NCBI GenBank assembly: GCA_950295325.1
Contig: OX485804.1
Span: 19,282,001 to 19,346,000, forward strand
DNA: 64,000 bases
Origin: Polytrichum commune
Lineage: Eukaryota > Streptophyta > Polytrichopsida > Polytrichales > Polytrichaceae
Direction of reading: 5' to 3'
The notes below the pieces were generated by a model. That model saw nothing but the letters and a program-made list of their open reading frames with translations, ran no database searches and had not been told where the DNA came from. The number at the start of each line of letters is the position of its first letter. The first letter of the stretch is position 1. Made by a program: the position numbers and the translations under genes. Shown here one piece after another: positions 4,301-57,522 of the stretch.

Positions 4301-4364
4301 TTGCCTCCGCCTGGTCCTGGTTGTGGAAGATAGGTTGGGAGAAATTCTCCACGCCCCCCGACAT
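1317..4364 (-). CDS. CYP86-family cytochrome P450 (fatty-acid omega-hydroxylase, CYP86B-like), three exons
   Basis: This is a microsomal haem monooxygenase that in this family hydroxylates the omega carbon of long-chain fatty acids for cutin or suberin. Proposed exons on the minus strand are about 4038-4364 (start ATG at 4364; hydrophobic N-terminal anchor, then a proline-rich hinge), 2878-3170 (ends at a strong GTAAGT donor) and 1317-2379 (starts after TAG; the phase joins KN-R-TPIDFQD). Exon 3 holds the I-helix AGRDTT (about 1929-1949), the ExxR helix ESMRLYP (about 1741-1760), a PERW motif, and the haem loop FNAGPRLCLGKE (about 1494-1532) with its cysteine. The C-terminal wording (PGHKVEYKLSLTL) resembles CYP86B more than CYP86A. 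Length, about 560 residues, is normal. The exon-1 donor is weak and uncertain. No break is visible in exons 2 and 3. Confidence 0.85.
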
Positions 4365-6537
4365 GCTGCTTCTTCTGTAACGCTCGCTGCAACAGCTTTA
4401 ATTTGCTTCCCAAGCGGGGGGACGGTGGTCACAGCCAAAACTTAGGTTGCTTTGGACCATCCACCCTTCCTTACTATTATACGTGTGACTTCATCAACTC
4501 TGTATATGTGTGTGTGTGTGTCTCTCTCTCTATCCCTCTCCGCTAGTTGCAGCAATGTGACAAGCCTGGAGTTGGGATGGCCCCCCTACAATGCCAGGAG
4601 CCAGATTGAGCTCCCAGCTGCACTAACTTCATTACTCAGCTCTCTCATCCTGTACACGACGAGCTTGGACATGCAATCTGGTGTTTCTCCTCTTATGTGT
4701 GCAGATGGAGATAGGGTTAGGCCAGCTTAAGAAAGAGTTCAATCAATCGGCACTTAGAGTTGGTTTATCCAAGTAAGTAAGTCTACTCCCCTCAAGACAA
4801 TAGGCACAATCGGCTACAATGCAGCTACATGTCCATGAGCTCACTACCACCAATCGGCGCTAGCTGCTAGCCTACCCTCTGAGAGACCCCCCTTTGGCTC
4901 TCCAACCATACCCCCGACGTGGACATGCACGGCAAACTTGATCTTTCCCGAGTCGACCATCACCAATATTATTCAGTCAATGTTGCTGTAACTACAAAAA
5001 AACGGGTCATCAACATGTAGCTCTAGTTAGACTACTCATGTAGCTTCAGACTCGGATTCTGGGGGATTGTGTAACTAACTCGTCAGCTACTGATGAACTG
5101 TGATTCTTGTTTTGATATACCCAAAGCCGGCACCCTCTCAGTGATCTCGAATAAGCTTAGTCTAACAAAAAGCAATCTGTGCTGAAGCTTGTTACAATGG
5201 AAGTGGCAAAACTCCACCAAAACCGGTTTCACTTGGAGCAGAGAAGATCTTGAGGCTGGCAGACTCCACTAGGTGAGCAGCTGCTGTCGGTTAACTTCTG
5301 CTTTTGTGGTCCACCCGCCCCACCTCACCAGTAGTAGCAGAAGAAGCCACACCCACACGCAGTACCCATTAATGAGGAGGCTGCGAGCTTGCATAAAGTT
5401 CCTTACCAGTTACCAACCAAGTCACTCCACATTAATTGAACTCAGACTGCTGGATACATGCCTTCCGCATTCATCCCGCCCCGCGACATTCGGCCAGTTC
5501 GCTCACTCACTGGCTGGATCGATCGATTCGTCCGTCCTCCCCTCTCTTTAGTTTGCTCTTGGCCACCAGCTAACTTATCTGCGGGACCACATTCTCCAGG
5601 GCCAACTCTCTATCTGCGTGAACTTTTTGTGATAGTAGGCCCGGGCCGGGCCGGGGAGTAAGTCCACCGAGTAGTTGGGACAACCACTCCGATGCACTTT
5701 GGGAAGCAGTAGGTAGATACACTGACTTGACCACTTACTGATCAAGTCTGACTGCAGCAGCTGCGACGGATTGAACGGAATGGAACTTGTATAAGATTCT
5801 GCTATTACGGCAGGTGGGTAGTACCCGGCACTCATCAAATATTCCCAAACGCGCACACTACTACTGTAACTACTACTACTGTAGTCTACTGCTGCCCATC
5901 GACTTCAAAGCAGCTCAGCTCCGCTCCTCCTCCTGACGAGTCCTCACTGTTAATGATATTGATGTTGATGTTGATGATGTTGCAAGGAAGAAGTGTGTAC
6001 TGCCGCACCATGAATCCCCGCGTTAGGCATGCAGACCCCACGACTCAGCTACCGCATTCTCTGTCGTCCCCGAACTGAACCAACAAAGATTAGTAAGTCC
6101 CCTGAATCTGCACATGATGAATGTAAGCGATCACATACATAACTTACATAGAGTACCATCCATCACTCCAGACTTCCCATCACATGAAGTGCGATGAGCT
6201 CAAACCTTGATGCATGGCTAAGTTGGAAGTTGGGTGGAGGCGGGAGGGATTGATCATTGGACCCACTACCAGGAAGGTGGTAGGCTGCTTGCTTGCTGGC
6301 TGGCTTGCCTGGCTAGTTACTGAGGCCGGTGCTGCTGTGGCTGCATGAGAGGCACCATAATTATCATGGGAGTGATTCAGGCCGGATGGTAAAGGATGAC
6401 AAAAGGTGTGCCTACGGATGGGGTTTAGTAAATGCTAAGAGGACAGGTGGTAGTTGTGACCTGCTGGGCGAAGGGTTTAATGAGGCCAAGGGGTCCCCCC
6501 CCCTTCCCTTTGCGGGGGTGCCAGTCAAGCAATGGCG
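4365..6537. other. Upstream flank of the P450 gene and intergenic DNA
   Basis: The first few hundred bases upstream of the P450 start must hold its promoter, but I cannot fix a TATA box. A (TG)n(TC)n microsatellite lies at about 4507-4531. The rest, to 6537, is unique-looking sequence with no supported gene. Confidence 0.4.
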
Positions 6538-7117
6538 AGTACTTACTAATAAGGTGTGTTGCGGGTGTTACTTGGTTCATTTTTCCCATGTTCTCCCAAC
6601 TTCTATGAATTGGATCTACACAGTGAAACTTGTGTTGCAACGCCAGTGAACCTATGATGATGCATTGGCAAAAATCGGATTGGAAGTTGGACCTCCGGCC
6701 TTGATTTGGTTACGGTTATCGTAAGTGCGTGTTTGTTGATTCTTTAACTCAATGCATAGGTGGTCCTCCTAGTTGTGTGCATTGTTGGTGTGTGGAGTAC
6801 TTAATAAATAATTGTATACGTAATACGAGTACTTACTAATAAGGTATATTGCAGGTGTTACTTGGTTCATTTTTCCCATGTTCTCCCAACTTCTACGAAT
6901 TGGATCTACACAACAAAACTTGTGTTGCAGCGTCAATGAACCTATGATGATGCATCGGCAAAAGTCAAATTGGAAGTTGGACCTCCGGACTAGATTTGGT
7001 TACGGTTATTGGAAGTGTGTGTTTGTTGACTCCTTAACTCAATGCATAAGTTGTCCTCTTAGTAGTGTGCATTGTTGGATGTGAAGTACCTAATAAATAA
7101 TTGTATGTGTAATCCGA
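6538..7117 (+). repeat. Two-unit tandem duplication, 290-bp period
   Basis: Units start at 6538 and 6828, both with AGTACTTACTAATAAGGT, and run side by side with scattered substitutions (roughly 88 percent identical by eye). Neither unit encodes anything recognisable. The amount of divergence says the duplication is not recent. Confidence 0.85.
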
Positions 7118-8295
7118 TCTCGTTTACGCATGTATCTTTGTTCTTTGATCCTTGGCTATTCACACACCAATCAAGTATATTAAAGTGTCCGATTGAGGAA
7201 AGTAATCAAATAACAACCCGCATACCTTCATGCACACAACAACACGCCGTGGCATGGCATTGCAAGGGGGAGAGAGAGAATTATTGTGTACAAGCTTACC
7301 TCTTGATACCATCTAACATAAAAACTTGATCCCATTAGAGGACTGAGGAGCCTGGTCATCAAAGGGTTGCGGATTCCCTACGACATTCCATGGGTTACCA
7401 CCTTGGATCATGGTGTGTTAGATTATGATTCTACTTCTTTTCTTGACAACCTCTTATGCCAATGAAGGTGATTTAAAGTCTTACAATTGCAATTTGAAGA
7501 ACACATTCTGAAAGTAAACAATAAATTCAACCCAATGATATCTTACTTATCAAATATGAAAGAAAGTAATATTTTCAGAAATTATGATTCATAAGTGGAT
7601 AAGAATAATTATAATCATAAAGTGGTCTATGCATAATTGGGACTAGGAGAATTTCAGCCATAATTCATAACCCTGCATCAACATATAACATAATATTATA
7701 TAGTTTGTATGAAAATGGAAACGGAGTAACTTAGAAAGGTTGAGGGAGGGCATGTGAAACGATCATGACTGGGATAGAATGTAGAAAATTTTCAAATCCG
7801 AACTAGTAATACAATGCACCAATTTGACCTCTTATTAATAATGTGTCCAGAACCCATTATCATAAAGTATGCATTATCAGGTCCAAACCTTAATTATTAT
7901 ATGTACACCCCTTATTGTGTAGGAGTTGGGCACCCGGGCCTTGGATACATTGAGTTCCTAATATGACGAGATCAGGAAACGGAGTCTACCCACCAACCCC
8001 TGGCCAATGGTAGGGATCCAAGCATTTGAGCTAAAGGGCGCAATGCAACGATATAACCTAGGACCCGTGTGCCTGTCGATTCATTTTGAGGTTTTTGAAG
8101 CTAATTTTGATGTCACATCTAATCTTAAAATAGCTTCTGGGATGCATACTATTTTAGATGTTTTCTGTAGATGAATGCAAGGTACGCTCATATGCAGTAA
8201 TTCCCTCTCATCCATTCCATGGAGAGGACTCATCACCATCGACGAGTGAGGGTGAGTTTGAGCTGAGTCTTTCGACAATGAACAGGGACAACCAA
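7118..8295. other. Intergenic DNA, nothing recognised
   Basis: AT-rich sequence without a supported reading frame, TIR pair or tandem repeat. Confidence 0.4.
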
Positions 8296-39859: not shown

Positions 39860-41905
39860 TCAAATAGGGGATAGCCGTTTTTATACGACTCCATGACTGT
39901 AAAAGAAACGTAGCCCTTACTTATCATCCTTGAGTGCAACATCCCACCTGCTATATTCTTAATAACATCTTTTCCAATGAATACCATTTTGGAGTCTTCT
40001 TCCTCATAACCACACATTTGTACCACATCTCCCACATTCTGCACATTGTAACAACCATATGTTAGTCACAAGAATATATTATTTTAAGATTGCGTGTTTT
40101 ACAATTATATCATACTCCATGTTACATAAAAAAAACCTCACCAAATCTTGAAGGGGTTGAATCTTCTTTAAAGCATTAGTAGCAAGGGGAGGTTTATCAG
40201 CCCGACGTTTATCCACCATCTGTTTGTCTTTTTTTTTTTCCATTTTGTTTCGCCCTTCTTTGATGGCTACACCTCAATTTCTTTACAATGTTTTTTTTAT
40301 TTTTTATTTGTTTACCTTCATTACATTAGATGTACACATTTGTTAGTAGGCTTTGGATGATACAATAACTGCCAATAATAATGGGTATATAATATGTCTA
40401 TTCAACAATTTTAGCATGAGATTGATTAATCCATTGTCCACAATCCTAGTATATTACATAGACTGTCCCTGGTCAACTTCCATCAATATAAATCCACAAC
40501 AATTTGACCTCAAAACATAAGCAATATAACTTAGCATAAATATTACTCATAGTGCAACCCCATTGGTTTAGACGTCACATTTTTGCAATATTTACAACGC
40601 CTCCAAAGTCAATTTATCGCCTTCACTCAATCGTATCCGCTTAGGTTTAGGTCCCTTCTCTATTTTTGCATTCTCATCATGTTTCTGGACACCTTGATTT
40701 GACGATGGCTTTCCAGATGTGTAAATAGCATCGTTAGAAATCTCTTGTACTTATTCATAATAATTTCCACTGAGTGCATTAAACACCACTACATATGTTA
40801 ACATATATTTAAATACATATATTAACTTTGATAAATCAAACTCCAAACAATTATACTCTTAAAATACAAAAAATGAATACATTTATAAATAAATAAGTCA
40901 CAAAACTTCATACTTTCACATGAATCATACATGTATTCCTCGTTATCTGATGAGGCTTTTTGGGACCCGGAAGGGTTTGTACATCCACCACAATTGGTTT
41001 TTCAATTACACCTCATAATTCCAAAACCTTGTTTATAGGTTTTTTTGACCTTGAGCGTGCAAGGGGAGACACACTTCTACGAGAGTTTGATATTAATTTC
41101 TCAACATTAGAAGGGTGTTCGCCACGTGAGGGTATGATAGCCACTCTTTCACTGAGATACCAAACTTAGCCATCACCGCATCTAGCGAGCTTTGAATTGT
41201 GTTGAATTTTTCATCTAATTGTCTTGCCTCCGGCCTTACGTCCTCAAATCCTACACTATTCGTACGAATTACATGAGGAAATAACTCGAAACCACTTTGA
41301 ACATCACTTTACCCCCCTTGATACAGTGGAAAATATTGTACAACCACCTTTTGGCCGTGTTGTGCTTTTATCCCTAAGAAGCTCCACCTCTATCTCATCT
41401 TGGCGGGGTCTCTATTTAATTGTGATGCCTGGACTAATATATATCGTAAGCAAAAATCTCCGGCAAATGCTCATCATTGTGTACTACACCAATATATTAT
41501 AGAATTCTTGCTCAATTTAGTTGGGATCGCGAGTGTGCTCCACCATATTCAACGAATTCCATACGGATAGACTTGGTTTTCCTAGTTCTTTCAATATACA
41601 CATCTTCGTTTGACATCTTTTGTTCTTCAACTATTGGCCTAGGTTACTTTTCAAGACCTCGCACCTTAATACCCTAGGTTCCCTTTTGAATTTACAATAT
41701 TCCCAATTCTCCTTCATACGCGAGTAGATATTGTCAAATGCCCTCTCATTCTGGTCATTAATAGTGTCCACACTCAAATCCAAATTGCTGGAGTAACTAT
41801 ACAAAGCATTGCGGCCTATACACCCCACTAGAAAATCCTGGAAAATAATCCACATCAGCCACAACTCATGTTAGATAACAACCATATTAGCTTGAAACAT
41901 CATAA

Positions 41906-42161
41906 TGTCACGGTATGCGGCATCGAAGGCCGCACCGTATCCGTTGGGTTTCATCCATCTAGATTTGGATGGATGAATCTAGATGTGGAGAGGAAGGCTC
42001 CTAAGTGAGGAACCTCCTCATTGGCTTGGCATTCTTGCCAAGTCAAGTCTTGTGAGTTAGTGTGTGGAGAGAGCTTGTGTGAGGTGTAGATTGCATGATT
42101 TTGCAATAAATCTTGAGTTCTTCTTTAGAGCTATTGTGAGTGTTCTACTCTCTTCCTTCTC
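41906..42161 (+). repeat. 5' LTR part (lacks 106-bp U3 start and 77 bp internally)
   Basis: It starts TGTCACGGTATGCGG, corresponding to position 51675 of the 3' LTR, and ends at CTTCCTTCTC where internal sequence begins. Compared with the 3' copy it lacks the first 106 bp plus GC, and 77 bp equivalent to 51896-51972, a deletion bounded by TTT on both sides. AATAAA at 42105-42110 is a candidate polyadenylation signal. A primer-binding site should follow; TGGCAAAAATTGC at about 42165 starts with the required TGG, but I cannot assign it to a tRNA. Confidence 0.85.
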
Positions 42162-44053
42162 ACTTGGCAAAAATTGCTTCATTTTTGTTGTTTTCTTCTA
42201 CATTTTTTATATATAACACACAAGAAAAGGCGTGAGGACAAGGAGTGATGAAGTTGCGAAGTTCTGGAGAGAGAACACCGCGGATTTGCGGCGCAACAAG
42301 ATGAAGAATGCTTGTTTTTGAAGGCCACATCAAGGTGAATTGTGGTGATGAATTATTGAATTTATTACGGAATTCCTTGTTATTTTTCCGTTTGCAAGCT
42401 TGAATTCGTATCATTAAGCTTGTGTAGAGCATTCTTCATTCCAATTTGAGTTCAAGTTCATTTAAAAACAAAATCAAAAAAAAAAGAAAAAAAAAGAAGG
42501 AGAGGAGCCGACTCTTGGAGCCGGAGCTCCTGGTCGGTCCCGGAGTGCAGAGCTGCGGCGGCGGCCGGCGGCCCGGGCCCGCGGCTCCCCCCCTCCTCTT
42601 TCTCCTCCCCCCCCCTCGGTAACCCCCTCCCCCGGTACTTCCCTCCCGTACCTTCCTCTCTTCCCCCCCGTACCTCCCCTCTCACCTTCCTCCCTCCTTC
42701 CTCTCACCCTTCCCCCCCTACACCTAAGCCCCCCCCCAAGCCTACACCTAACCTCCCCCCCCCCCAGCCTACCTGCGCCAAGCCCAGCTCCCTCCCCTCC
42801 TCTGCTGCGGCAGCAGCAGCAGCAGCAGAACTGCTGCAGGGGGGCAGGGGGTCGATTTTTATTTTTATTTTTATATTTAAAAAAAAATCATTGTGTAGGT
42901 AGAGAGAGAGATATATATATACATGTTTATTTGTATTTTTTTAATACAAATATATATGTATATGTATATATAGACAATCAACTAAGATACCAATTCTTTG
43001 GATCTAAGAGAGGTGTATCTTGACGGAGACATTCTCCATGGGTGTTGGGGGCATTCAAAATTTCAAGAGCGTGCAATTCTTGGGTTTATGAATAACAAAC
43101 TTTAAGGATGGATTGAGAGCACCTTCTTGAGTTTCTTGGGGATTGTCGGAGGTTTGGTACGGAATCATTTTGTTGGGAAAGGTGGAGCATTGCGGGAGAG
43201 GTTCGCAGGGGCGTCCGGCAACACGCGGAGGGCGTGGGATTGCGGCGAATTTGCGGCTAGCTTCATTTTCTCTTGCAACAACTTGATAGAGGTACTTGGC
43301 ATAAGCGGGGGTTTGCCATTTTCTTTTGTATAAAAGAAAATTAAGGGCATTGTTATTTATTTGGGGAATAGGTGTAGGATTTATTGGGGATAGGTGTAGA
43401 ATTTATTTGGGGATCAATTTATTAGATTGTTGGGGATAGGTGTAGGATTTGTTGGGGATAGGTGTAGAATTATTTGGGGATAGGTTTATATATTGTTGAG
43501 AAATTGCTTAAGGGTAGAACAAATTGTGTTGAGAAATACAAATTCTGGGGACTACAAGGAGGAGAGAATTTTATGATGTAGTACTAGATGAGGGATGTGC
43601 TTATGCTATTTATTTACTTAAGCAACAGGGGCTCTATATTTTGACCACCAACCGCAGGCGGGTGCCGGTTGGTCACAATCGCTTTGAATTTTTGCTTAAG
43701 TGTTGTGTTGGAGAAGAGGATCCAGTGCTGTTCTTGCATTGTTCCTTGTATTTTGTTGTGGTACCTTCCCCCTGTGGTGGGCTTGTTGTGTTGGAGTCTT
43801 CCAACATTGCCCCAATTTGTTTGTCCTAGATTGTGATAGGGTATTGTGGGGGTGAGGTCGGATTAATGACCGACGAGACCCTTGTGTGTGCACCAAGTGG
43901 GCGGTGCTTGTTTTCCTTATGGTGAGGCTGGGTTGATGACCAGCAGACCATAAGTTTGGTGGTGTTTGCAGGTGCAGGTTGCCTTTTACCCTTCACCTTT
44001 ACACCACATTAGTTTAGATTGTTGGCTCCAGTGACCGAACCCATTGCGGGTTT
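42162..44053 (+). other. Retrotransposon leader (untranslated region)
   Basis: 1.9 kb without a convincing gene. It contains an A-rich tract (42466-42500), a very GC-rich, pyrimidine-rich block (about 42530-42840) with a CAG/CTG run at 42801-42838 able to form a hairpin, an AT microsatellite (42905-42975), tandem copies of a GGGGATAGGTGTAGAATTTA-like unit (43360-43490), and several inverted repeats just before gag, including GACCACCAACCGC...GGTTGGTC (43640-43672) and GGTCGG/CCGAC at 43857-43873. Structured leaders of this kind can serve packaging or translation control; that role is inference. Confidence 0.6.
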
Positions 44054-45622
44054 ATGGTTACAACGAGGAGCCAACATTATCGTTCGCCGTCTCCAACATC
44101 ATCACAAGGTCGATCCTCAGACCTTTTGGACAGTGAACCAGTGGTAGCACCCGACGAGGCTTTTAAGCCTACTTCGGCGTGGGGGACTACCACTCGTTCT
44201 TACGTCCATTGGGTGGGATCCTTCGACGAGATGGAGGAGGAGTCAAGAGGCGGCATTCGAGACCGATTTTCTGGTCGAGCAGGGACCATTTCCTTGCAAG
44301 ATTGGAAAATCCGGTTCAGGACATGGATGAGGGAGAAACGTCAACGCAATACCAACTTCAACGATTGGTATGCGTTCGAGCTTCTACCACAACATTTAGA
44401 GCACGAAGCTCTCCAGACCTATGAGCAATGGACGGATGCTCATTGGATGGAGCTGCGCCAAGTGGAGCGGTACTGGGAGACTCGGGTTGAGTTGGTATCC
44501 GCATTGAAGGAAGGCGCAGCTTCCAGTTTGATGGCCGTTCCGGAGGTTAAGACGGAGGTACAGGAGGGAGTATACGAGGTGGATGTGGAGGGAGCTTTTC
44601 CCATCAATCCCACGGCTCAGGGCCAAGCTCCCGCAGCGGCGAGTACCTCGAGCCCCATTCTTCCACTGTCACGTTATGCCCAGGCTACCCAGGCGGCATT
44701 AGCTTCTTTAGGAGCTCCGCCGGGTTTTGATCCTCTACAGGAATTCCAACTCCATTTGGAGGCGGAATATGGAGGCTTCCGCCGCGATCAAATGCAGCGT
44801 ATCCAGGACTTTCGACGGGAGAAAGATGACACACCTCGTACCATGTACACGAGGTTGGCGAGGTTTGCCAGGGAATCTGGAGGTGTTTTCGCCGAGAGCC
44901 AGTTGGTAAAGGTGTTTTTGTCAAAGCTTGACAAACGCCTCATTGACTTAGCTTTACCCAGGATCATCATGGATCATGGTGGCCGAGCGACACTTGCGGA
45001 AGCTTTCGCCATTGTTGAGCAGTGTGATCGTGCCTTGTGTCAGCACGACGCCACTGACTTGGTGTCCATGCTAGTGGATTCTAGCAAATCCCGGAAGGTT
45101 CCGGTTGCGGCTGCGGGGTTGGCGGAGGCAGAGGTGGACAAGATCTTGCATTGTTGGTCTTGTGGACAGGCGGGCCATGCTAAGAAGGATTGTCCTTCGA
45201 AGCATAGGCAAGCCCAGACCGCCACTACTCCGAAGCGGAAACCATTTGTTCCCGCTAAGGGCTCGACGAAGGGGACGGATAATCAGTTACCCAAACAATT
45301 GAAGTGTTCTCATTGTGGGCGAAACAATCACGCGGTGGAGAACTGCTTCGCTCTCCATCCTGAGAAACGTCCTTCTTCCGACCGGGAGAAGACGTTGGAG
45401 GCGAAGATTGGAGCCATGGAGGAGAGGTTCAAAAGCTTGGCTTCATCCGGCCAAATTTTGGCCTCACCGTCTTCCTCCGCAGCTCAGGCTAGTTCTTCCA
45501 TTCCGGATTACTATATGTTCGGAGCCTCGGGCGAGGTGGTGAGTTCTGCAGCTGTGACACGTGCTCAAACCGTGTCACGAGCCACGCCTTCGACCACAGG
45601 AGAGTCTGTGGACAGCTTATGA
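44054..45622 (+). CDS. Gag polyprotein with two CCHC zinc knuckles
   Basis: 522 residues from an ATG (44054) to TGA (45620-45622). The middle (about residues 230-340) has the helical capsid-type retrotrans-gag layout, with LARFARESGG and VKVFLSKLDKRL. Two zinc knuckles follow at residues 367-380 (CWSCGQAGHAKKDC) and 418-431 (CSHCGRNNHAVENC), which bind nucleic acid. Gag assembles the virus-like particle in the cytoplasm. The reading frame stays open after the TGA for 1.3 kb and runs into the protease, so the stop may be read through at some frequency to make Gag-Pro; it could also be a new nonsense mutation. Codon use and GC content differ sharply from the surrounding DNA. Confidence 0.92.
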   Translation: MVTTRSQHYRSPSPTSSQGRSSDLLDSEPVVAPDEAFKPTSAWGTTTRSYVHWVGSFDEMEEESRGGIRDRFSGRAGTISLQDWKIRFRTWMREKRQRNTNFNDWYAFELLPQHLEHEALQTYEQWTDAHWMELRQVERYWETRVELVSALKEGAASSLMAVPEVKTEVQEGVYEVDVEGAFPINPTAQGQAPAAASTSSPILPLSRYAQATQAALASLGAPPGFDPLQEFQLHLEAEYGGFRRDQMQRIQDFRREKDDTPRTMYTRLARFARESGGVFAESQLVKVFLSKLDKRLIDLALPRIIMDHGGRATLAEAFAIVEQCDRALCQHDATDLVSMLVDSSKSRKVPVAAAGLAEAEVDKILHCWSCGQAGHAKKDCPSKHRQAQTATTPKRKPFVPAKGSTKGTDNQLPKQLKCSHCGRNNHAVENCFALHPEKRPSSDREKTLEAKIGAMEERFKSLASSGQILASPSSSAAQASSSIPDYYMFGASGEVVSSAAVTRAQTVSRATPSTTGESVDSL

Positions 45623-46921
45623 GCTCGGCACAATGGTCCCGCGGATCAGATTGGTCAGGCACGCCTTCCATTGTCTTTTGGATTGGCTGATGCTGCCCAA
45701 TCTGTCAGTGGTCGCAATTCGAGCTTGGAGGCTTCGAGTCCGTCGACCGACGTGCTGCACACTTTGGCATCCAAAGTGTTGCACACGCCTTTGTTCACAG
45801 CAATGGATTGGTCGTCATCCGATATCCAACCAGCTAAGGTTTTTTACCTAGCAGGTAGGATATTGGAGGGGAAGGCAACCCCGTCTTCTCTTACTGTGGC
45901 TCAAGCAACCGCAGACCTTCCTACCACGGAGGATCCTGAGGAAGCCGCCAAACGGCGAGCGAGGCTTGCGGAGGAGGCCATTGCGTCTTTTGACGCACAC
46001 ACCTTGGATGGCCAGGAGCCAACCACATCTTATCATTCACTAGCCTCTGCAGGCGCAGCTTATCTATCCGATGTAGCTGCTCGACCTGCTCGCGAGCGTC
46101 GAGGCATTCGACCTGGCGTTGTACGGATGGTGAATGATACCGGCATTTTGGTGGTCAGTCGTACTGGGAGCAATGCTACCCGGGTTGCTCCCCGTTGTGT
46201 GATGATGGATTCAGGGGCACAACCGGTTATGCTCGGCAAGAGGCTTGCCCAAGAGTTGGGGTTGAAGGCCGAGGATTTGGCTCCCTGTCCATTCACCATT
46301 GTCACATCCATTGGTCACGTGGAGCGGGCCATGGGTTATACTCGGGAGCCATTAGATCTTAGCTTCCGAGTGAAGCCTGGAGATTCACCCGCACCTCTTC
46401 TTCTTAGGTGTGCGGTGACGGATGCGACCAACTATGACATTTTAGTTGGTCAGCAAGCACTTTACCCTCTTGGTTTTGGTTTGGACAACTGGACTGAGGA
46501 GGCGTGGATCCGACCAGGTTGGTCGGCTGGGGATGGCCGCAGAGAACTTATTCCCGTGGCTTTTGCGGCGGCCGCGACCATAGCACCATTATCTATGGTT
46601 TTTGGATGTGGTGCTATGGTGGACACATTGCCTTATGGTTCTGCATTGTTGGAGGAGTCATTGGCATTCATGGGAGTACAAACGATAAACGGGATATGGC
46701 ACCTAAGGGTGCACTGGTGCGCCATCCCAAGGATCCCCTTCCTCCTTGGCGTGATTCCGCCGAGCTATTTCGGAGGTGCGAGGATATTGTTCACTCTCTC
46801 ACTCCTAGGACACCGGTCATACCCGGTGTCCTCTCGGCATTGGCACATCCCATTTTATGGCAGCCGCCAGACACGGGAATTACTTTGGTGGAACTGTTTG
46901 GGGGCATCGGCACAGGCTTAG
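45623..46921 (+). CDS. Retroviral-type aspartic protease region, in frame with Gag across a TGA
   Basis: Open in the same frame as Gag with no good ATG near its beginning, so expression by stop-codon readthrough is the simplest reading. The active-site motif MDSGAQPVMLG is at about 46205-46237 (DSGA at 46208-46219), followed by LGLKAEDL and a C-terminal DILVGQQALYPLGF block typical of Ty3 proteases. The enzyme would cleave the polyprotein inside particles. Roughly 170 residues before the motif (from 45623) form a linker rich in Ala and Ser. The useful part ends before about 46650; the remainder of the frame overlaps the methyltransferase frame. Confidence 0.85.
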   Translation, partial: ARHNGPADQIGQARLPLSFGLADAAQSVSGRNSSLEASSPSTDVLHTLASKVLHTPLFTAMDWSSSDIQPAKVFYLAGRILEGKATPSSLTVAQATADLPTTEDPEEAAKRRARLAEEAIASFDAHTLDGQEPTTSYHSLASAGAAYLSDVAARPARERRGIRPGVVRMVNDTGILVVSRTGSNATRVAPRCVMMDSGAQPVMLGKRLAQELGLKAEDLAPCPFTIVTSIGHVERAMGYTREPLDLSFRVKPGDSPAPLLLRCAVTDATNYDILVGQQALYPLGFGLDNWTEEAWIRPGWSAGDGRRELIPVAFAAAATIAPLSMVFGCGAMVDTLPYGSALLEESLAFMGVQTINGIWHLRVHWCAIPRIPFLLGVIPPSYFGGARILFTLSLLGHRSYPVSSRHWHIPFYGSRQTRELLWWNCLGASAQA

Positions 46922-48135
46922 CGGCCGTATTGGAGGCTGGCCTCACGGTTAGACGGTATGTCTATGTGGACAACTCTCAAGTGTCCACCCGTGTGGCTCG
47001 TCACCATCTTCACCAATTGATGGTATTGTACCCCCAACAGTTACCTCCAACTGCCATTCGTGGGTGTTTTTCACGTCTCCCTCGTGATGTCACACTCATC
47101 AGTGAGGCCGATTTACGACATTTAGGTCCGGTGGATATGGTGATTGCGGGATGGCCATGCCAGGGCCATTCACGTGCTGGAGCCGGCCGAGGTCTAGAGG
47201 ATCCCAGGTCTAATTTGTTTTGGGACCTCATCCGCCTCATGCAGTGGTGGTTTTCCCACCAACATACTCCTCCAGGGTATATATTCGAGAATGTACCATT
47301 GTTGGGCGACTCCCGGGATAAGGTGTTGGAAGGTGATCATTATGTTCGTCAACACCTTGGAGATCCCATTTTTGTGGATGCCGCGAGCATTGGTTCTTAT
47401 GCCCACCAGCCTCGGTGGATTTGGACCAACCTCGCACCGTCATCTACTTTAGCTGCAGCATTTTCTGCAGTACCTCTACCTTTGGATCAGAAGGTGGATG
47501 ACATCTTGGATGCAAACCGGACCTCTTTGCCGGTTGTTCGAGATGATTTACCCCCGTTGGCATTGGTCAACAAAGTGGGGACACCACGGAAAGCATTTCC
47601 TACCTTTATGACGTTTCCACAGTCATTCGCCTTCCGCGATCGGGGGCCGGGTATGGTGTGGGATGTTCACACCAAAACCCACACCGAACCATTGGCTGAC
47701 GAACGGGAACGTGCCATGGGATTCCGCACTGGCACCACCGCAGCTCCCGGCCTTTCTGAGGGCCAGCGACGCTTCGTGTTGGGCCAAGCTATGGATCTTC
47801 ATACTATGGTGTGGACTGTTGCTTTATGCCTTTCATTGCAAAGGCATCGTGGTGACCAGTGCTTGTTTCTGGGGGCAGAGGACTCTGGTCAGGGGGCACA
47901 GCGGTCCACACCCATGGAGGAGGGAATTCACGCCATGGTTGGAGAAGCCGAACGAATTTTTCAATTCGAGCAGTATGTGATGGAGGAGCTTCGAGCTCAA
48001 CATTTTTACACTGCTTCGGTTTCTTCGCCTCCGGTGGTGGCTTCATCATCACATATTGGTGGTGATGAAGAAATGTCAGACTCTAGTACTAGCACCGAGA
48101 CTGGGGGCATGGTTAATGCCCCCTCCTCTCATTAG
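46504..48135 (+). CDS. C5 cytosine DNA methyltransferase domain in the retrotransposon
   Basis: Reads in the -1 frame relative to Gag-Pro. It opens at 46504; the first good ATG is at 46606 or 46696. Motifs in order: I, LVELFGGIGTGL (SAM binding, from 46885); IV, GWPCQGHSRAG with the catalytic Cys codon at 47158-47160; VI, FENVPLL (Glu at 47287); VIII-like QPRWIWTN (about 47407-47430); late ERERAMGF and GQRRFVLGQAMD (motif X). All residues needed for base flipping and methyl transfer that I can check are present. The late block reads like DNMT3/DRM-type enzymes, but I cannot assign the clade. About 70 acidic, Ser-rich residues close the frame before a TAG at 48133-48135, after which Pol continues in the same frame. 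Confidence 0.93.
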   Translation: MDPTRLVGWGWPQRTYSRGFCGGRDHSTIIYGFWMWCYGGHIALWFCIVGGVIGIHGSTNDKRDMAPKGALVRHPKDPLPPWRDSAELFRRCEDIVHSLTPRTPVIPGVLSALAHPILWQPPDTGITLVELFGGIGTGLAAVLEAGLTVRRYVYVDNSQVSTRVARHHLHQLMVLYPQQLPPTAIRGCFSRLPRDVTLISEADLRHLGPVDMVIAGWPCQGHSRAGAGRGLEDPRSNLFWDLIRLMQWWFSHQHTPPGYIFENVPLLGDSRDKVLEGDHYVRQHLGDPIFVDAASIGSYAHQPRWIWTNLAPSSTLAAAFSAVPLPLDQKVDDILDANRTSLPVVRDDLPPLALVNKVGTPRKAFPTFMTFPQSFAFRDRGPGMVWDVHTKTHTEPLADERERAMGFRTGTTAAPGLSEGQRRFVLGQAMDLHTMVWTVALCLSLQRHRGDQCLFLGAEDSGQGAQRSTPMEEGIHAMVGEAERIFQFEQYVMEELRAQHFYTASVSSPPVVASSSHIGGDEEMSDSSTSTETGGMVNAPSSH

Positions 48136-48144
48136 CAATTAGAG
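48130..48144 (+). promoter_or_regulatory. Leaky-stop context UAG-CAA-UUA between methyltransferase and Pol
   Basis: The stop (48133-48135) is followed by CAA TTA, which fits the UAG-CAR-YYA consensus shown for tobamovirus replicase readthrough. Pol has no start codon of its own nearby and stays in frame, so readthrough would yield a low amount of methyltransferase-Pol fusion. Confidence 0.8.
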
Positions 48145-51100
48145 TCTGTGCCAGCATCAGGTGGTTCTCCTTTGGTGGAGAGGGAGACTACAGAGTTTGA
48201 TGATTGGCCACTTGAATTAGGCCCTCGTCTCACTGGTGCTGAGGCACGGAAGGTACGAGCATTTATTCGCTCGTACCGTAGATGTTTTGCTTTTAGCCTT
48301 CAAGATCTTGAAGGTTATAAAGGAAAACCCATCCACATACAGTTGGAGGACGACCATCCCATTTTTCGGAGACCTTACATGCTCAGTGTTTCCGAGCGGA
48401 TTGGCGTTCAGGCTCGTTGCCGAGAGCTCTTGGCAGCAGGGCTAATCGAACTTTCCAACGGGGAGTATGCTTGTGCTACGGTTATGCCATCGAAGAAGGA
48501 TATCTTTGGCAATTGGACGGAGAAGCGGATGTGTGGGGATTACCGTCCAGTTAATCGGAAGACCAAGTCGGATCGGTATCCCATGCCGATCCCGGAGGAG
48601 TTGTTCGATGCCATCGGATTTTCTCGGGTCTTTAGCACCTTGGACTTGAGATCCGGATATCACCAACTTCCATTACTTACGGGAGATCGGGTGAAGACCG
48701 CATTTTGGGGAGTTGATCAAGATGGGAAAGATCAACTTTATCATTGGAAGTTTCTTCCATTTGGCCTGAAGAATGCACCCGCTGAGTTTCAACGGGTGAT
48801 GGATCAAGTTCTCTCTGGCTTGCCCTTTGCTCGGTGTTACATAGACGATGTGATCATCTTCAGCACAACACCACAGGAGCATGTGAGGCATCTGCAATCC
48901 GTTTTTGAATGGTTGCAGCGGTGGGGATTGCGCTTGCACCACGGAAAATGCAAGTTTTTCCATGACCGGTTGGCATATTTGGGGCATATGATTGTTCCAG
49001 GAGGTCTTGGGGTACAACAAGCTAAGGTGGACGCATTGCAGAAGATTCCGGCACCGGTAAATGTGCCGAGACTTCGTGCTTTCTTAGGCTTGGCGAATTA
49101 CTATCGGCGATTCGTCAAGAACTTTAGCTTGATTGCCAAGCCGCTCACCATTCTCACGAGCAAGGACCAACCTTGGACTTGGGGTCGTGAGCAACAACAG
49201 GCATTTGAGACATTGAAGCAGAAACTGGGTACGGCTCCAGTGCTTCGACGTCCAGATGTCTCCAAATCTTTCCAGTTGCATACAGACTGGAGCTCATTGG
49301 GTTTGGGAGCAGTTCTTACTCAGAAAGATGACGTTGGCCGGGAGTATGTTGTTGCTTACGCGTCGCGAAGCAACAACACGGCGGAGGCCAATTATTCGTC
49401 CTATGAGGGAGAAGCATTGGCGGCGGTATGGGCTATTGCCCATTTTCGGCCGTATCTTTATGGTCAGCACTTTACTTTGGTGACTGACCATCAGCCGTTA
49501 CGGTGGCTCATGAAGTCGGATAAGCTTACTGGCAAGCTTGCCAGGTGGGCTTTGTTGCTCCATGAGTATGATTTTGAGGTGGTACACCGTGCTGGGATTA
49601 CCAACATGGATGCAGATGGACTCTCACGCAATCCAAGTCCTTCGGATGAGGACTTGACCGGGGCCAGGTGGCATGGAGATTGTGATCGAGAGGCGGTTCC
49701 AGGTTGGCACGCGGCTGCCTACCTCACTTTATTTGCTGGTGCATCTGTTGAGATTCCGATACAGGGCTCGGATGATGAGACTGATCGGCCTCAAGCTATT
49801 GCGGATATATGGGAGGATCTTCCCGTATTGCATAAGCTTCAACAGGGTACCTTTCCTTTGTCTATTTCGGCAATGGAAAGGGATAGGATTGGACATCGAA
49901 TAACAAGGTTCCGTTGGGAAAACGGTTTGTTATTCCGATTGTGGCCGGATGGGACAAGGCGTATTGTTCCTAGGCCGGATCAGAGGGCCTCCTTGGTGCG
50001 ACAAGTGCACGAGGAACTTGGCCATTTTGGCATACGCAGGACACATTCGATGTTGCGTGGCCAATATTGGTGGACTGGCATGTATCAGCAGGTGGCTGCA
50101 TATGTCGGGAGGTGTGAAGTTTGTGACCGGGTCAGGTCTAGCTTTAACACCTTATCACCTCAGTTACAGCCCTTACCTATCATGGGATTAGGCTACCGTT
50201 GGTCGCTGGACTTTGCAGGGCCGTTGGTGGTTACACCACGTGGAGCAAAGTACGTTTTGGTGATGGTCGAGCATTTTAGCAAATGGATTGAGCTTGTTGT
50301 TCTACCCCAGAACTCTGCAGAGTTGGCCGCGGCCGCCTTTTTGGATCGTGTGTTAGCACGTTTTGGAGCACCAGCTGAGGTGTTGACGGACCAAGGGAGG
50401 GAGTTCCTTGGTGTTTTTGAGGAGTTGTGCACTAAGGCTCTCATAGATCACCGCACCACCTCTCGGGATCATCTGGAGGCAGATGGCTTGGCTGAACGGG
50501 TTGTTCAGACCACCAAGCGTGGCTTGAGGAAGTATGGATTACTTCGGGGAAGCCACCGAGATTGGGACCTTATGTTGCCATGGATTGCTATGGGCTATCG
50601 ATTTAGTAGGCAGGCCTCTTTGGCATCCTACAGCCCGTATCAATTATTGTATGGACGTGAGCCTATACTCCCGAGTTCTATTCGGGAAAAACTAGCTCCT
50701 GTTGTGAACTTGGATGACCCAGACCTTTGGGCAGAGTGTTTGCAAGAGCGGGCTCAATTCTTCCAGAGGGCCATGCCTATGGCCATGGAGAATTTGTCCA
50801 TTGCTCAGCACCGTGACACATTGCGTTATGCACGCATTCGTAGTGGTGCTTACCGGCCTCAGTTGCGGAGATTTCGGCAAGGGGATTATGTTTATCTTCA
50901 ACGTGAGGCGCCTACGACATTGGATGTCAGGGCGGGGCGCACTATCCTTCGGGTGAAGAAGGTGTTGCCAAGTGGTTTGTTGTTGTTGAAAGGCAAGGAT
51001 GGCAGGGAATGTCGCGAGCATTTCAAAAACGGTGCCCCATGTCATCTACCTATTGAGGGTACAGTTCATCCTGAACTGGCCGTCGTACCAGAGGGTCTTC

Positions 51101-51282
51101 CATGTTTTATGTGTGGAGACAAGAAGGGAGCGGCTACTATGCTCTTGTGTGATCAGTGTCAACGCGGTTGGCACATGGCATGCTTGCGGCCACCCTTGAC
51201 TTCTCTACCATCTGGACAGTGGAGTTGTCCTCGCTGTCGAGGATCTTCGGTACTTGGTGCTTCCACCAATCGTACTCAATGA
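48136..51282 (+). CDS. Pol: reverse transcriptase, RNase H, integrase and C-terminal PHD finger
   Basis: Continues in the methyltransferase frame right after TAG; there is no ATG near its beginning. Reverse transcriptase lies at about 48330-48960, with LDLRSGYHQ, LPFGLKNAP and catalytic YIDD (48838-48849). RNase H follows (about 49260-49640: HTDWSS, YEGEALAAVW, TDHQPLRWL), with TDWS in place of the usual TDAS. Integrase has the zinc-binding HHCC (His at 50008-50010; CEVC) and the catalytic triad Asp 50209, Asp 50389 and Glu 50494, 34 residues apart in the last pair. There is no chromodomain; instead a C4HC3 PHD finger (51103-51237) ends the protein. The frame is intact. It would act in particles and at nuclear integration. 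Confidence 0.95.
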   Translation, partial: QLESVPASGGSPLVERETTEFDDWPLELGPRLTGAEARKVRAFIRSYRRCFAFSLQDLEGYKGKPIHIQLEDDHPIFRRPYMLSVSERIGVQARCRELLAAGLIELSNGEYACATVMPSKKDIFGNWTEKRMCGDYRPVNRKTKSDRYPMPIPEELFDAIGFSRVFSTLDLRSGYHQLPLLTGDRVKTAFWGVDQDGKDQLYHWKFLPFGLKNAPAEFQRVMDQVLSGLPFARCYIDDVIIFSTTPQEHVRHLQSVFEWLQRWGLRLHHGKCKFFHDRLAYLGHMIVPGGLGVQQAKVDALQKIPAPVNVPRLRAFLGLANYYRRFVKNFSLIAKPLTILTSKDQPWTWGREQQQAFETLKQKLGTAPVLRRPDVSKSFQLHTDWSSLGLGAVLTQKDDVGREYVVAYASRSNNTAEANYSSYEGEALAAVWAIAHFRPYLYGQHFTLVTDHQPLRWLMKSDKLTGKLARWALLLHEYDFEVVHRAGITNMDADGLSRNPSPSDEDLTGARWHGDCDREAVPGWHAAAYLTLFAGASVEIPIQGSDDETDRPQAIADIWEDLPVLHKLQQGTFPLSISAMERDRIGHRITRFRWENGLLFRLWPDGTRRIVPRPDQRASLVRQVHEELGHFGIRRTHSMLRGQYWWTGMYQQVAAYVGRCEVCDRVRSSFNTLSPQLQPLPIMGLGYRWSLDFAGPLVVTPRGAKYVLVMVEHFSKWIELVVLPQNSAELAAAAFLDRVLARFGAPAEVLTDQGREFLGVFEELCTKALIDHRTTSRDHLEADGLAERVVQTTKRGLRKYGLLRGSHRDWDLMLPWIAMGYRFSRQASLASYSPYQLLYGREPILPSSIREKLAPVVNLDDPDLWAECLQERAQFFQRAMPMAMENLSIAQHRDTLRYARIRSGAYRPQLRRFRQGDYVYLQREAPTTLDVRAGRTILRVKKVLPSGLLLLKGKDGRECREHFKNGAPCHLPIEGTVHPELAVVPEGLPCFMCGDKKGAATMLLCDQCQRGWHMACLRPPLTSLPSGQWSCPRCRGSSVLGASTNRTQ
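51103..51237 (+). other. PHD finger domain at the integrase C-terminus
   Basis: Spacing C-x2-C-x11-C-x2-C-x4-H-x2-C-x14-C-x2-C, with the conserved Trp two residues before the penultimate Cys. This is the canonical Cys4-His-Cys3 zinc-binding pattern. PHD fingers in other proteins read the histone H3 tail, often by lysine-4 state. Here it takes the place of the chromodomain that guides many Ty3 integrases, so a targeting role is a reasonable inference. Ligand specificity cannot be read from the sequence with confidence. Confidence 0.88.
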
Positions 51283-51566
51283 TCCTGTGTGGTTTTCATC
51301 ATCTTGTGCTTGTCCAAATGGAAAATGAAAAGTTATGGCTTAGAGACGCAACCAACATGAGGCGGTGGATTTAATTCTTTGGGATCTGATGGCCAAACAT
51401 CAGAGGCGATTAAGGATGGGGCTCACCTTGCACCCAGCCTACAGTTCCTTGGAATAACGTTTACCACACTAGTTAGTTGCGGAGCAATCTTTCATGATCC
51501 ATGCCCTTTAGATTGGCATTGGTCCTAGCTGCTTGGCGGGACTCCATAGTCAGCTGAGGGGGGGCA
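51283..51566 (+). other. Pol 3' untranslated region with polypurine tract
   Basis: A GAGGGGGGG tract at 51556-51564 followed by CA and then TGTCGAGG looks like the polypurine primer for plus-strand synthesis placed directly before U3. No other feature is seen. Confidence 0.8.
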
Positions 51567-52007
51567 TGTCGAGGTGTGTTGTTTATGTGTGACTTTGCTA
51601 TGTTTTAGTTTTGTTTGTTAGTGGTGGTTGGTACTCGAGCTGCAGTGACACACGATCGTTATTTACATGACAGCTGTCACGGTATGCGGCATCGAAGGCC
51701 GCACCGTATCCGTTGGGTTTCATCCATCTAGATTTGGATGGATGAATCTAGATGTGGAGAGGAAGGCTCCTAAGTGAGGAGCCTCCTCCTTGGCTTGGCA
51801 TTCTTGCCAAGTCAAGTCTTGTGAGTTAGTGTGTGGAGAGAGCTTGTGTGAGGTGTAGATTGCATGATTTTGCAATAAATCTTGAGTTCTTCTTTCCCTA
51901 CTTACACTCTTGGATTCTCCCTTGGTGGAGTGAGAGATAGCTTGACTAATTGGTGTGCATTTGAAGAGATTTAGAGCTATTGTGAGTGTTCTACTCTCTT
52001 CCTTCTC
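51567..52007 (+). repeat. 3' LTR (441 bp)
   Basis: Starts TGTCGAGGTG straight after the polypurine tract and ends CTTCCTTCTC, the same point where the 5' LTR part ends. It contains the internal near-palindrome ATGACAGCTGTCAC (51668-51680), and AATAAA at 51874-51879. From 51675 onward it matches the 5' LTR part. Confidence 0.8.
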
Positions 52008-52113
52008 TGTCGAGGTGTGTTGTTTATGTGTGACTTTGCTATGTTTTAGTTTTGTTTGTTAGTGGTGGTTGGTACTCGAGCTGCAGTGACACACGATCGT
52101 TATTTACACGACA
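52008..52113 (+). repeat. Extra copy of the first 106 bp of the LTR, at the element's right edge
   Basis: Identical to 51567-51672 except for one T-to-C change near the end. It begins TGTCGAGG directly after the LTR end and stops at GACA, followed by the flanking ATAA. Together with the missing first 106 bp of the 5' LTR it gives the element permuted ends. Confidence 0.9.
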
Positions 52114-52117
52114 ATAA

Positions 52118-56751: not shown

Positions 56752-57522
56752 ATGGCGACACAAGAAGAGAACTACATGACGGTACAAGGAAATAATGATA
56801 TAGAAACAAAAGTAGATGGAGACACGGCACTGGAAAAAAAATGCAGAAATGGTGCAGGATAAAAATGAAGAAGTGGAGGTAATTCAGATGGTCAATGAAT
56901 GTTTCAGGAGGTATGATGGTTTGCCTGGATGTACAAATACCACTCCAAACAAAGAGGAAACGGAAGAAGAACTTCATGAAATTCATGCAGACTTGGACGA
57001 ATTGGCCAATGTAGAACCATATGTGAATGATGAAGATAATGATGACAATGCTGAGAACATGGAAGAATTATTGAAAGAAGCTAGAACTCCACTATTTAAG
57101 GACAACCCTACCAACCGGTTGCAAGCAATTCTCATGCTCCTTAATAATGACTAGTGTCATTATCAACCAAATCTTTTGCATTTCCACTCCATGTTGAACA
57201 AGTTTTCTTTGTGGATGATTTGAACAATCATGGATGGAAGGTGGTTTTACGGAAAGAGCCAAGGGGAGCAAGAGTTATTTCTAGAAAAGATTCTATGCCG
57301 GACATAGGATGCTTGTCTTTAGGCAATGTTGAAGAGCATTGTGGATTGGTACCAACATCATTAGACAATGATGCTACACCAACAAAACTAATATTAGATG
57401 AGGTTGTGATTTTAAACACTGATCAAGTGGTTGTATCTTTGAACACAAATGAGGATGAACCATCTTACAAAGATGAGAATGAATTTGGAATTGAAGAAGA
57501 TGGAAATGCTTTGATAGATTAA
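56752..57522 (+). pseudogene. TNP2 (TnpD) transposase, internally deleted
   Basis: Starts MATQEENYM at 56752. The frame shifts at an 8-base A tract (56834-56841; one A fewer restores it) and continues through an acidic part to LLKEARTPLFKDNPTNRLQA and LMLLN, a segment well known from the start of the TNP2 core. After TAG at 57152-57154 a different frame gives HVEQVFFVDDLNNHGWKVVL and RKEPRG, which matches the far C-terminal TNP2 block. The several hundred residues of catalytic core between them are missing, so this copy is a deletion derivative and cannot be active. Confidence 0.7.

Follow-up and report, generated by a model that had tools for sequence, protein, structure and literature searches.

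Retrotransposons that encode a DNA methyltransferase have previously been described from one charophyte and from dinoflagellates (PMC5890265), a later paper placing DNMT3 members in retrotransposons 'in streptophytes and dinoflagellates' (PMC12344493); statements drawn from the publications cited here refer to the available parts of each text. KnitGypsy-Dnmt3 of the alga Klebsormidium nitens (de Mendoza et al. 2018, PMC5890265) combines a Ty3/gypsy domain set with a DNMT3-type coding domain under purifying selection, and SymbioDIRS-Dnmt3 of dinoflagellates carries a DNMT3 domain for which de novo CG activity was demonstrated in yeast (PMC5890265). Here we describe an element that shares these three features of KnitGypsy-Dnmt3, found in 64,000 nucleotides of the moss Polytrichum commune (contig OX485804.1, positions 19,282,001 to 19,346,000, forward strand), a stretch called the window throughout. 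The first-pass annotation of the window had proposed a C5 DNA methyltransferase inside a Ty3/gypsy retrotransposon, between protease and reverse transcriptase (RT), and had named charophytes and dinoflagellates as precedent. Both statements were borne out: the methyltransferase open reading frame (ORF) is open and matches Pfam PF00145 above cut-off (E 1.8e-12), RT, RNase H and integrase lie downstream, and the precedent is right (PMC5890265). We consider it probable, with appreciable room for doubt, that the element is a fairly young and defective copy, in a moss, of a Ty3/gypsy lineage of streptophytes that carries a DNMT3-type methyltransferase, this judgement being made jointly with the whole mechanism proposed below. 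Mosses and liverworts are now added to the hosts of such elements.

The methyltransferase and its element

The element occupies positions 41906-52113 of the window (10,208 nt). It encodes gag, protease and DNMT, then RT, RNase H, integrase and a PHD finger, in that order, up to 51282. The motif names used below are presumed to be the usual ones.

44054..45619, + strand: gag, first ATG at 44054
45152-45193 and 45305-45346, + strand: two CCHC zinc knuckles of gag (zf-CCHC, E 0.0013, just under cut-off)
45620..45622, + strand: in-frame TGA stop in the gag-protease linker
46199..46534, + strand: aspartic protease (DSGAQPV...), in the gag frame, weak Pfam match
46498..48135, + strand: open frame of the DNMT3-type C5-DNA methyltransferase, catalytic core at ~46867-47847
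46891-46917, + strand: motif I
47149..47172, + strand: motif IV, GWPCQGHS, with the catalytic cysteine; both C and Q conserved in all 32 aligned relatives
47281-47298, + strand: ENV
47398..47418, + strand: motif VIII, YAHQPRW
47701-47799, + strand: IX/X region
48133..48141, + strand: TAG CAA TTA, the stop separating methyltransferase from RT, in the tobacco mosaic virus (TMV)-type readthrough context UAG-CAR-YYA
48136..51282, + strand: Pol ORF, a single uninterrupted frame
~48517-48993, + strand: RT, within the Pol ORF
~49255-49569, + strand: RNase H, within the Pol ORF
~49975-50139, + strand: integrase zinc-binding domain, within the Pol ORF
~50194-50463, + strand: integrase core, within the Pol ORF
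51103..51237, + strand: PHD finger closing the integrase polyprotein at its C-terminal end (PF00628 above cut-off, E 3.6e-10)

The order of gag, then protease, RT, RNase H and an rve integrase is that of Ty3/gypsy elements, and the integrase spacing is D-59-D-34-E both in the window and in L001, a related contig described below. Pfam matches above cut-off were DNA_methylase, RVT_1, RT_RNaseH, Integrase_H2C2, rve and PHD; protease and zinc knuckle fell below it, yet both are conserved in relatives. When the four ORFs were scanned with Pfam at E 0.01, no phage integrase was found (the tyrosine recombinase that is the hallmark of DIRS elements), rve being present instead, and no chromodomain followed the integrase as in chromoviruses, a PHD finger taking that place.

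The DNMT ORF matched DNMT3A by phmmer (E 1.3e-10). An alignment-profile search gave DNMT3C/3A at ~3e-23, 4onj at 3.4e-11, DRM2 at 1.5e-8, HhaI at 1.6e-8 and DNMT2 at 2.4e-6; 4onj, named 'DNA methyltransferase', is presumably a plant DRM. By these sequence scores, DRM, DNMT2 and bacterial enzymes all lie further from the domain than DNMT3 does. Structural comparison revealed a fold resembling DNA-bound DNMT3, with ~24-25% identity in the structural alignment with animal DNMT3A/3B; the catalytic fold and the motif order are common to these enzymes and that of the window. Motifs run I-IV-VI-VIII-IX/X, unpermuted, with PCQ and ENV. The QxRW motif of the first-pass annotation is present, but it is really an altered AHRxRW, with R in 30 of 32 aligned relatives, H in 2, and Q in the window copy. 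Neither PWWP nor ADD was found in the methyltransferase ORF, where DNA_methylase is the only Pfam match.

Everything had been placed in one open frame, and the copy had been thought possibly active. The first statement holds for the methyltransferase itself but not for the element, where the protease lies in another frame, the change being located between ~46675 and ~46715, and a stop (48133-48135) precedes RT. Activity of the window copy is rejected in view of the TGA at 45620, of the frame change, which leaves DNMT out of the protease frame, and of the replacement of one motif VIII arginine with glutamine. The stop at 45620 is a lesion of this copy, because 15 long relatives (P0218-P0232) and L001 keep gag and protease in one ORF. 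A programmed frameshift between protease and DNMT is disfavoured: the close relatives P0017 and P0033, as well as P0218-P0232, have both in one frame. Judged from their sequences, relatives with intact frames exist, and the window copy is broken.

Protein searches with the domain returned 97 relatives in the first round and 44 in the second, the two sets overlapping, and many were fused to gag, protease or RT (domains located by BLAST). Named hosts are Marchantia polymorpha, Calypogeia fissa, Sphagnum spp., Klebsormidium nitens and Closterium; by these matches, relatives occur in mosses, liverworts and green algae. In all 15 of P0218-P0232 a gag-protease-DNMT ORF of 1228-1451 aa ends before RT, and several shorter fragments terminate at corresponding places. 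A second architecture, in which DNMT lies between RNase H (RH) and integrase (INT), was found in P0246 as RT-RH-DNMT-INT-PHD, and portions of this order are carried by P0251, P0069, P0070, P0073 and P0077; the PHD finger was seen in P0246 and P0251. In P0059, at 83% identity to the window, a short piece of DNMT adjoins the integrase on its upstream side, probably the result of a deletion. A methyltransferase tree of the kind that the first-pass annotation had proposed was built with 89 rows, namely the window, L001 and those proteins, 87 out of 134, in which the domain spans 250 residues or more (quick method, unrooted). Five of the 6 second-architecture rows form one group (Shimodaira-Hasegawa-like approximate likelihood ratio test, SH-aLRT, 99), separate from the groups holding the window, Sphagnum and liverworts, P0251 being too short; the window clusters with P0001, P0002 and P0008 (SH-aLRT 99).

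L001 (CADCWO010000201.1) is 9,285 bp long with identical 127-nt ends, hence of circular topology, and contains one 1,346-aa gag-protease-DNMT ORF and an open RT-INT-PHD ORF. Its DNA is 78% identical to the window in Pol and 65% in protease-DNMT. To judge from its relatives it is a plant-type element. It is filed under a Synechococcales metagenome-assembled genome (MAG) whose isolate name hints at soil crust, evidently because that public bin is contaminated; an Obscuribacterales MAG is likewise where P0007 is filed. A genome-contig search gave 64 loci, the whole domain being matched by L001 only and the other 63 partially, at 24-60%. In viral contigs neither the single-protein query nor Pol gave a match, and an alignment query gave partial matches at 68 loci. 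Among plasmids, 26 records matched at <60% identity, and the best 5 of these 26 were all annotated bacterial methyltransferases.

Putative leaky stop, split repeats and proposed replication

The context UAG-CAR-YYA around the stop between DNMT and Pol is that of tobacco mosaic virus, described as essential for readthrough (PMC2754532). L001 has TAG CAA TCA at the same boundary, which also fits; boundary DNA is readable for these two sequences. The window has 893 TAGs on one strand and 946 on the other, and 3 and 2 of them, respectively, are followed by this context, the DNMT/RT site counted in. The first Met of the Pol frame is not reached before residue 82 in the window and residue 117 in L001, and yet pN/pS is 0.11 in Pol codons 21-79, compared to 0.77 in the DNMT tail ahead of the stop. 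RT synthesis by AUG re-initiation is disfavoured, no Met being available ahead of conserved RT sequence. Since the start of Pol is Met-less yet constrained, and the DNMT tail less so, readthrough is the likeliest route. The ORFs of long relatives show a Gag-protease-DNMT polyprotein as the first product; leaky readthrough of the UAG, to which the shared motif and the constraint point, would append RT, RNase H, integrase and PHD. Placed before a leaky UAG, the enzyme should therefore be made at Gag levels, and it would be packaged at Gag stoichiometry.

The element is bordered by repeats of two kinds, A and B, and by a target site duplication (TSD):

41902..41905: TSD ATAA, left copy, directly outside A1
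41906..42161, + strand: A1, 5' terminal repeat (TGTCACGG...CTTCTC), 77 nt shorter than A2
42035..42043, + strand: TTGCCAAGT in A1, candidate self-primer, perfect complement of the priming site
42162..42170, + strand: candidate primer-binding site ACTTGGCAA, adjoining the end of A1, 9-nt complement
51556..51566, + strand: polypurine tract GAGGGGGGGCA, immediately 5' of B1
51567..51672, + strand: B1 (TGTCGAGG...CATGACA)
51669..51678: palindrome GACA-GC-TGTC at the B1/A2 joint, an internal copy of both integrated ends plus GC
51675..52007, + strand: A2 (TGTCACGG...CTTCTC)
52008..52113, + strand: B2, 3' terminal repeat, meeting A2 with no gap and no overlap
52114..52117: TSD ATAA, right copy, directly outside B2

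The repeat order is A-coding-B-A-B, with A1 and B2 as outer termini in place of the same long terminal repeat (LTR) at both ends. The polypurine tract and the 4-bp target duplication are as in Ty3/gypsy elements, which have 4 or 5 bp; taken alone the ATAA duplication is weak, because the flank is AT-rich. In L001 the G-run GGGGGGGCA precedes B as well, and the identical palindrome is found at 7051-7060. The insertion is fairly young, as had been claimed: apart from a single gap of 77 nt, A1 and A2 show 2 differences over ~255 aligned positions, and B1 and B2 show 1 in 106. This sole B1/B2 difference, CATGACA (51666-51672) versus CACGACA (52107-52113), is of the CpG-to-TpG type, L001 having CACGACA. 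Between A1 and gag, positions 42450-42830 are strongly C-rich and of low complexity, with a CAG run; the L001 counterpart (7595-7744) holds other short direct repeats.

Inside A, the complement of the priming site measures 9 nt in the window, a length attained by 26 of 3121 background windows; in L001 it measures 13 nt, which 0 of 2925 attain, and its sequence is unlike that of the window. This complementarity between the site following A and a stretch inside A suggests that reverse transcription is probably self-primed. In Tf1-like elements the primer site is complementary to the 5' end of the transcript; here the complement that was found lies within A. The TGG that would pair with a CCA-3' tRNA primer is not in L001, no tRNA set having been compared. 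A2 and B2 meet exactly at the boundaries set by the priming site and the polypurine tract, which is the joint that ligation of the two ends of a reverse-transcribed B+A LTR should give, and the palindrome halves are the integrated ends without GC. The LTR built by reverse transcription would then be B+A, and the integrated A-coding-B-A-B form would result when the DDE integrase opens a two-LTR circle at GACA-GC-TGTC. Cutting each strand of the palindrome after CA would free both ends together with two-base overhangs, much as in retroviral 3' processing, and integration would leave CA-3' ends and a 4-bp duplication. A split-repeat Gypsy with a DDE integrase thus suggests integration from a circular intermediate, of which we know no example in the Gypsy class.

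The nearest solved PHD fingers (best 60 of 96 matches) include CHD4, PHF12, DPF3, ATXR5, KDM5, UHRF1 and PHF21A, and many of these bind unmodified H3K4. The finger is constrained (dN/dS 0.037 over 48 codons, dS being saturated). By analogy with these neighbours, its probable role is to direct the integration complex towards chromatin in which H3K4 is unmodified.

Proposed role of the methyltransferase and alternatives

With the enzyme packaged, the element's own cDNA could become methylated at CG sites, inside the particle or on leaving it. The new copy would bear the host CG mark, and the likely benefit is that the copy would enjoy protection or be accepted as self, which PMC5890265 also raises as a possibility. 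Putting the parts together, bryophyte DNMT-gypsies may form a distinct replication type: self-primed, with DNMT at Gag stoichiometry, cDNA methylated in the particle, a circle, a single DDE cut at a palindromic joint in the LTR, and PHD-guided integration of a copy pre-marked with the host silencing mark. This composite is offered tentatively, and we doubt that it will hold in full. The family could show why a mobile element writes the silencing mark of its host, and since the genetically tractable Marchantia is among the hosts, the question of why a transposon would methylate DNA becomes testable.

Several points weigh against this scheme. In the published yeast assay no methylation was detected for the Klebsormidium Gypsy enzyme, a result that the authors called inconclusive, and human DNMT3B was inactive as well (PMC5890265). 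CpG depletion was not seen in the element, the observed/expected ratio (0.71) being above that of both flanks (0.57 and 0.34); there is therefore no scar of long CG methylation, and depletion as a trace of self-methylation is not borne out. The stop before RT is not universal: DNMT and RT are in one protein in P0085, P0248 and P0252 of Closterium, in P0045 and P0254, and in P0250 of Sphagnum. Of 11 Marchantia rows, 5 terminate past the DNMT tail, 2 terminate within DNMT or shortly behind it, and 4 continue into RT, RNase H or integrase, these rows being annotated gene models in which exons may have been joined. Fragment P0019 shares the upstream frame of the window copy, which keeps a shared or programmed frame change in play. 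Because L001, a contig of circular topology, belongs to a MAG labelled cyanobacterial, its circularity may reflect an assembly loop. Where its A repeat ends was placed by comparison with the window. Finally, one integrated copy was read with both flanks, and the layout rests on the window copy, the L001 joint and the 2018 legend.

The methyltransferase might act on host DNA or RNA instead of cDNA, leaked Gag-protease-DNMT marking the host genome, the insertion site or the element RNA and thereby damping or hiding the element. DNMT3-type domains do act de novo on chromatin, and the integrase polyprotein has its PHD finger. RNA and host-epigenome effects are also raised in PMC5890265. We nevertheless hold this reading improbable, if a serious contender: the Gag polyprotein to which the domain belongs should be packaged, the fold of the domain resembles that of DNMT3 bound to DNA, and profile scores set DNMT3 (~3e-23) far ahead of the tRNA enzyme DNMT2 (2e-6). 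Retention of the domain for structure or nucleic-acid binding, as in DNMT3L, with catalysis incidental or lost, would agree with its faster evolution (pN 0.224, against 0.073 for RT and 0.060 for INT) and with the loss of a motif VIII arginine in the window copy. It is quite unlikely in our view, since 32 of 32 relatives, at 32-89% identity to the window, keep the catalytic C, Q and E, as a pseudo-enzyme would not.

As to the repeats, A-coding-B-A-B could be an accident of the window copy, a rearranged or part-duplicated LTR with no bearing on replication. A1 is indeed 77 nt shorter than A2, a single flanked copy is readable, and the ATAA duplication is short in an AT-rich flank. An accident would hardly make A2 and B2 abut precisely at the priming-site and polypurine boundaries, with ATAA outside both A1 and B2; moreover, the B-GC-A joint is kept in L001, at 78% DNA identity in Pol, and the same layout is stated for KnitGypsy-Dnmt3, so we give this explanation little credence. 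A misassembly or chance fusion of methyltransferase and gypsy, which the frame change and stop at the borders might evoke, is already refuted, its probability being practically nil: because the fusion recurs across many relatives, in separate contigs and in Marchantia, Sphagnum, Calypogeia, Closterium and L001, chance and misassembly are excluded.

Elsewhere in the window, positions 1317-4397 (- strand) hold a cytochrome P450 gene, CYP86-like by match names, with at least 2 exons. Its larger exon, at 1317-2459 (- strand), shares 80% identity with Ceratodon purpureus over 93% and 98% identity with a metagenome protein; other named plants are at <60% identity (best 120 of 6254 matches). On the strength of this exon the host was placed among mosses. 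At 56816-57522 (+ strand), ORF pieces presumably resemble plant DNA-transposon proteins.

Comparison with known elements

DIRS/PAT-type retrotransposons have in common with the window element the A-coding-B-A-B repeats and an inferred circular intermediate; the window element differs by its DDE integrase and 4-bp target duplication. SymbioDIRS-Dnmt3 likewise shares the DNMT3 domain and split repeats, but it has a tyrosine recombinase, lacks a DDE integrase and is not a Gypsy (PMC5890265). The closest system remains KnitGypsy-Dnmt3, whose repeats are stated to be 'the same as that of a DIRS retrotransposon' (Fig. 4 legend, PMC5890265), as in the window; no mechanism for this layout was found in the available text. 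There, in an alga, DNMT is described in the Pol polyprotein ORF, whereas in the moss it closes the Gag-protease polyprotein before a leaky stop, and the window integrase carries a PHD finger, a term that does not occur in the main text on KnitGypsy-Dnmt3 (PMC5890265).

In the open-access literature searched, we found no DNMT-gypsies of mosses or liverworts (the supplement of PMC12344493 may hold bryophyte cases), no DNMT in a Gag polyprotein and no PHD finger in a Gypsy integrase. Not found in print, either, are a Gag-protease-DNMT polyprotein ending before RT at a TMV-type stop, a PHD finger in the integrase polyprotein, the RT-RH-DNMT-INT-PHD order, and split repeats combined with a 4-bp duplication, a self-complementary priming site and a palindromic joint, the layout itself being known from KnitGypsy.

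A primer site complementary to the element's own 5' repeat is shared with the self-priming Ty3/gypsy elements Tf1/sushi and Tcn1, self-priming being predicted for Tcn1 (PMC6317226); those are chromoviruses, while the window element has a PHD finger and DNMT. Readthrough candidates have been cited among rice gypsy-type retrotransposons (PMC2754532), which gives the leaky stop as such a precedent among Gypsy elements; its place after a methyltransferase was not found in print. Leaky-stop retroelements and plant viruses (PMC2754532; Tca2, PMC2194720) bypass a stop to make a longer product, as is proposed here for the moss element. Unlike in those systems, the pre-stop product of the moss element includes a DNA methyltransferase, and its placement with Gag, not Pol, ahead of a plant-virus-like leaky stop predicts a high dose of enzyme in the particle.

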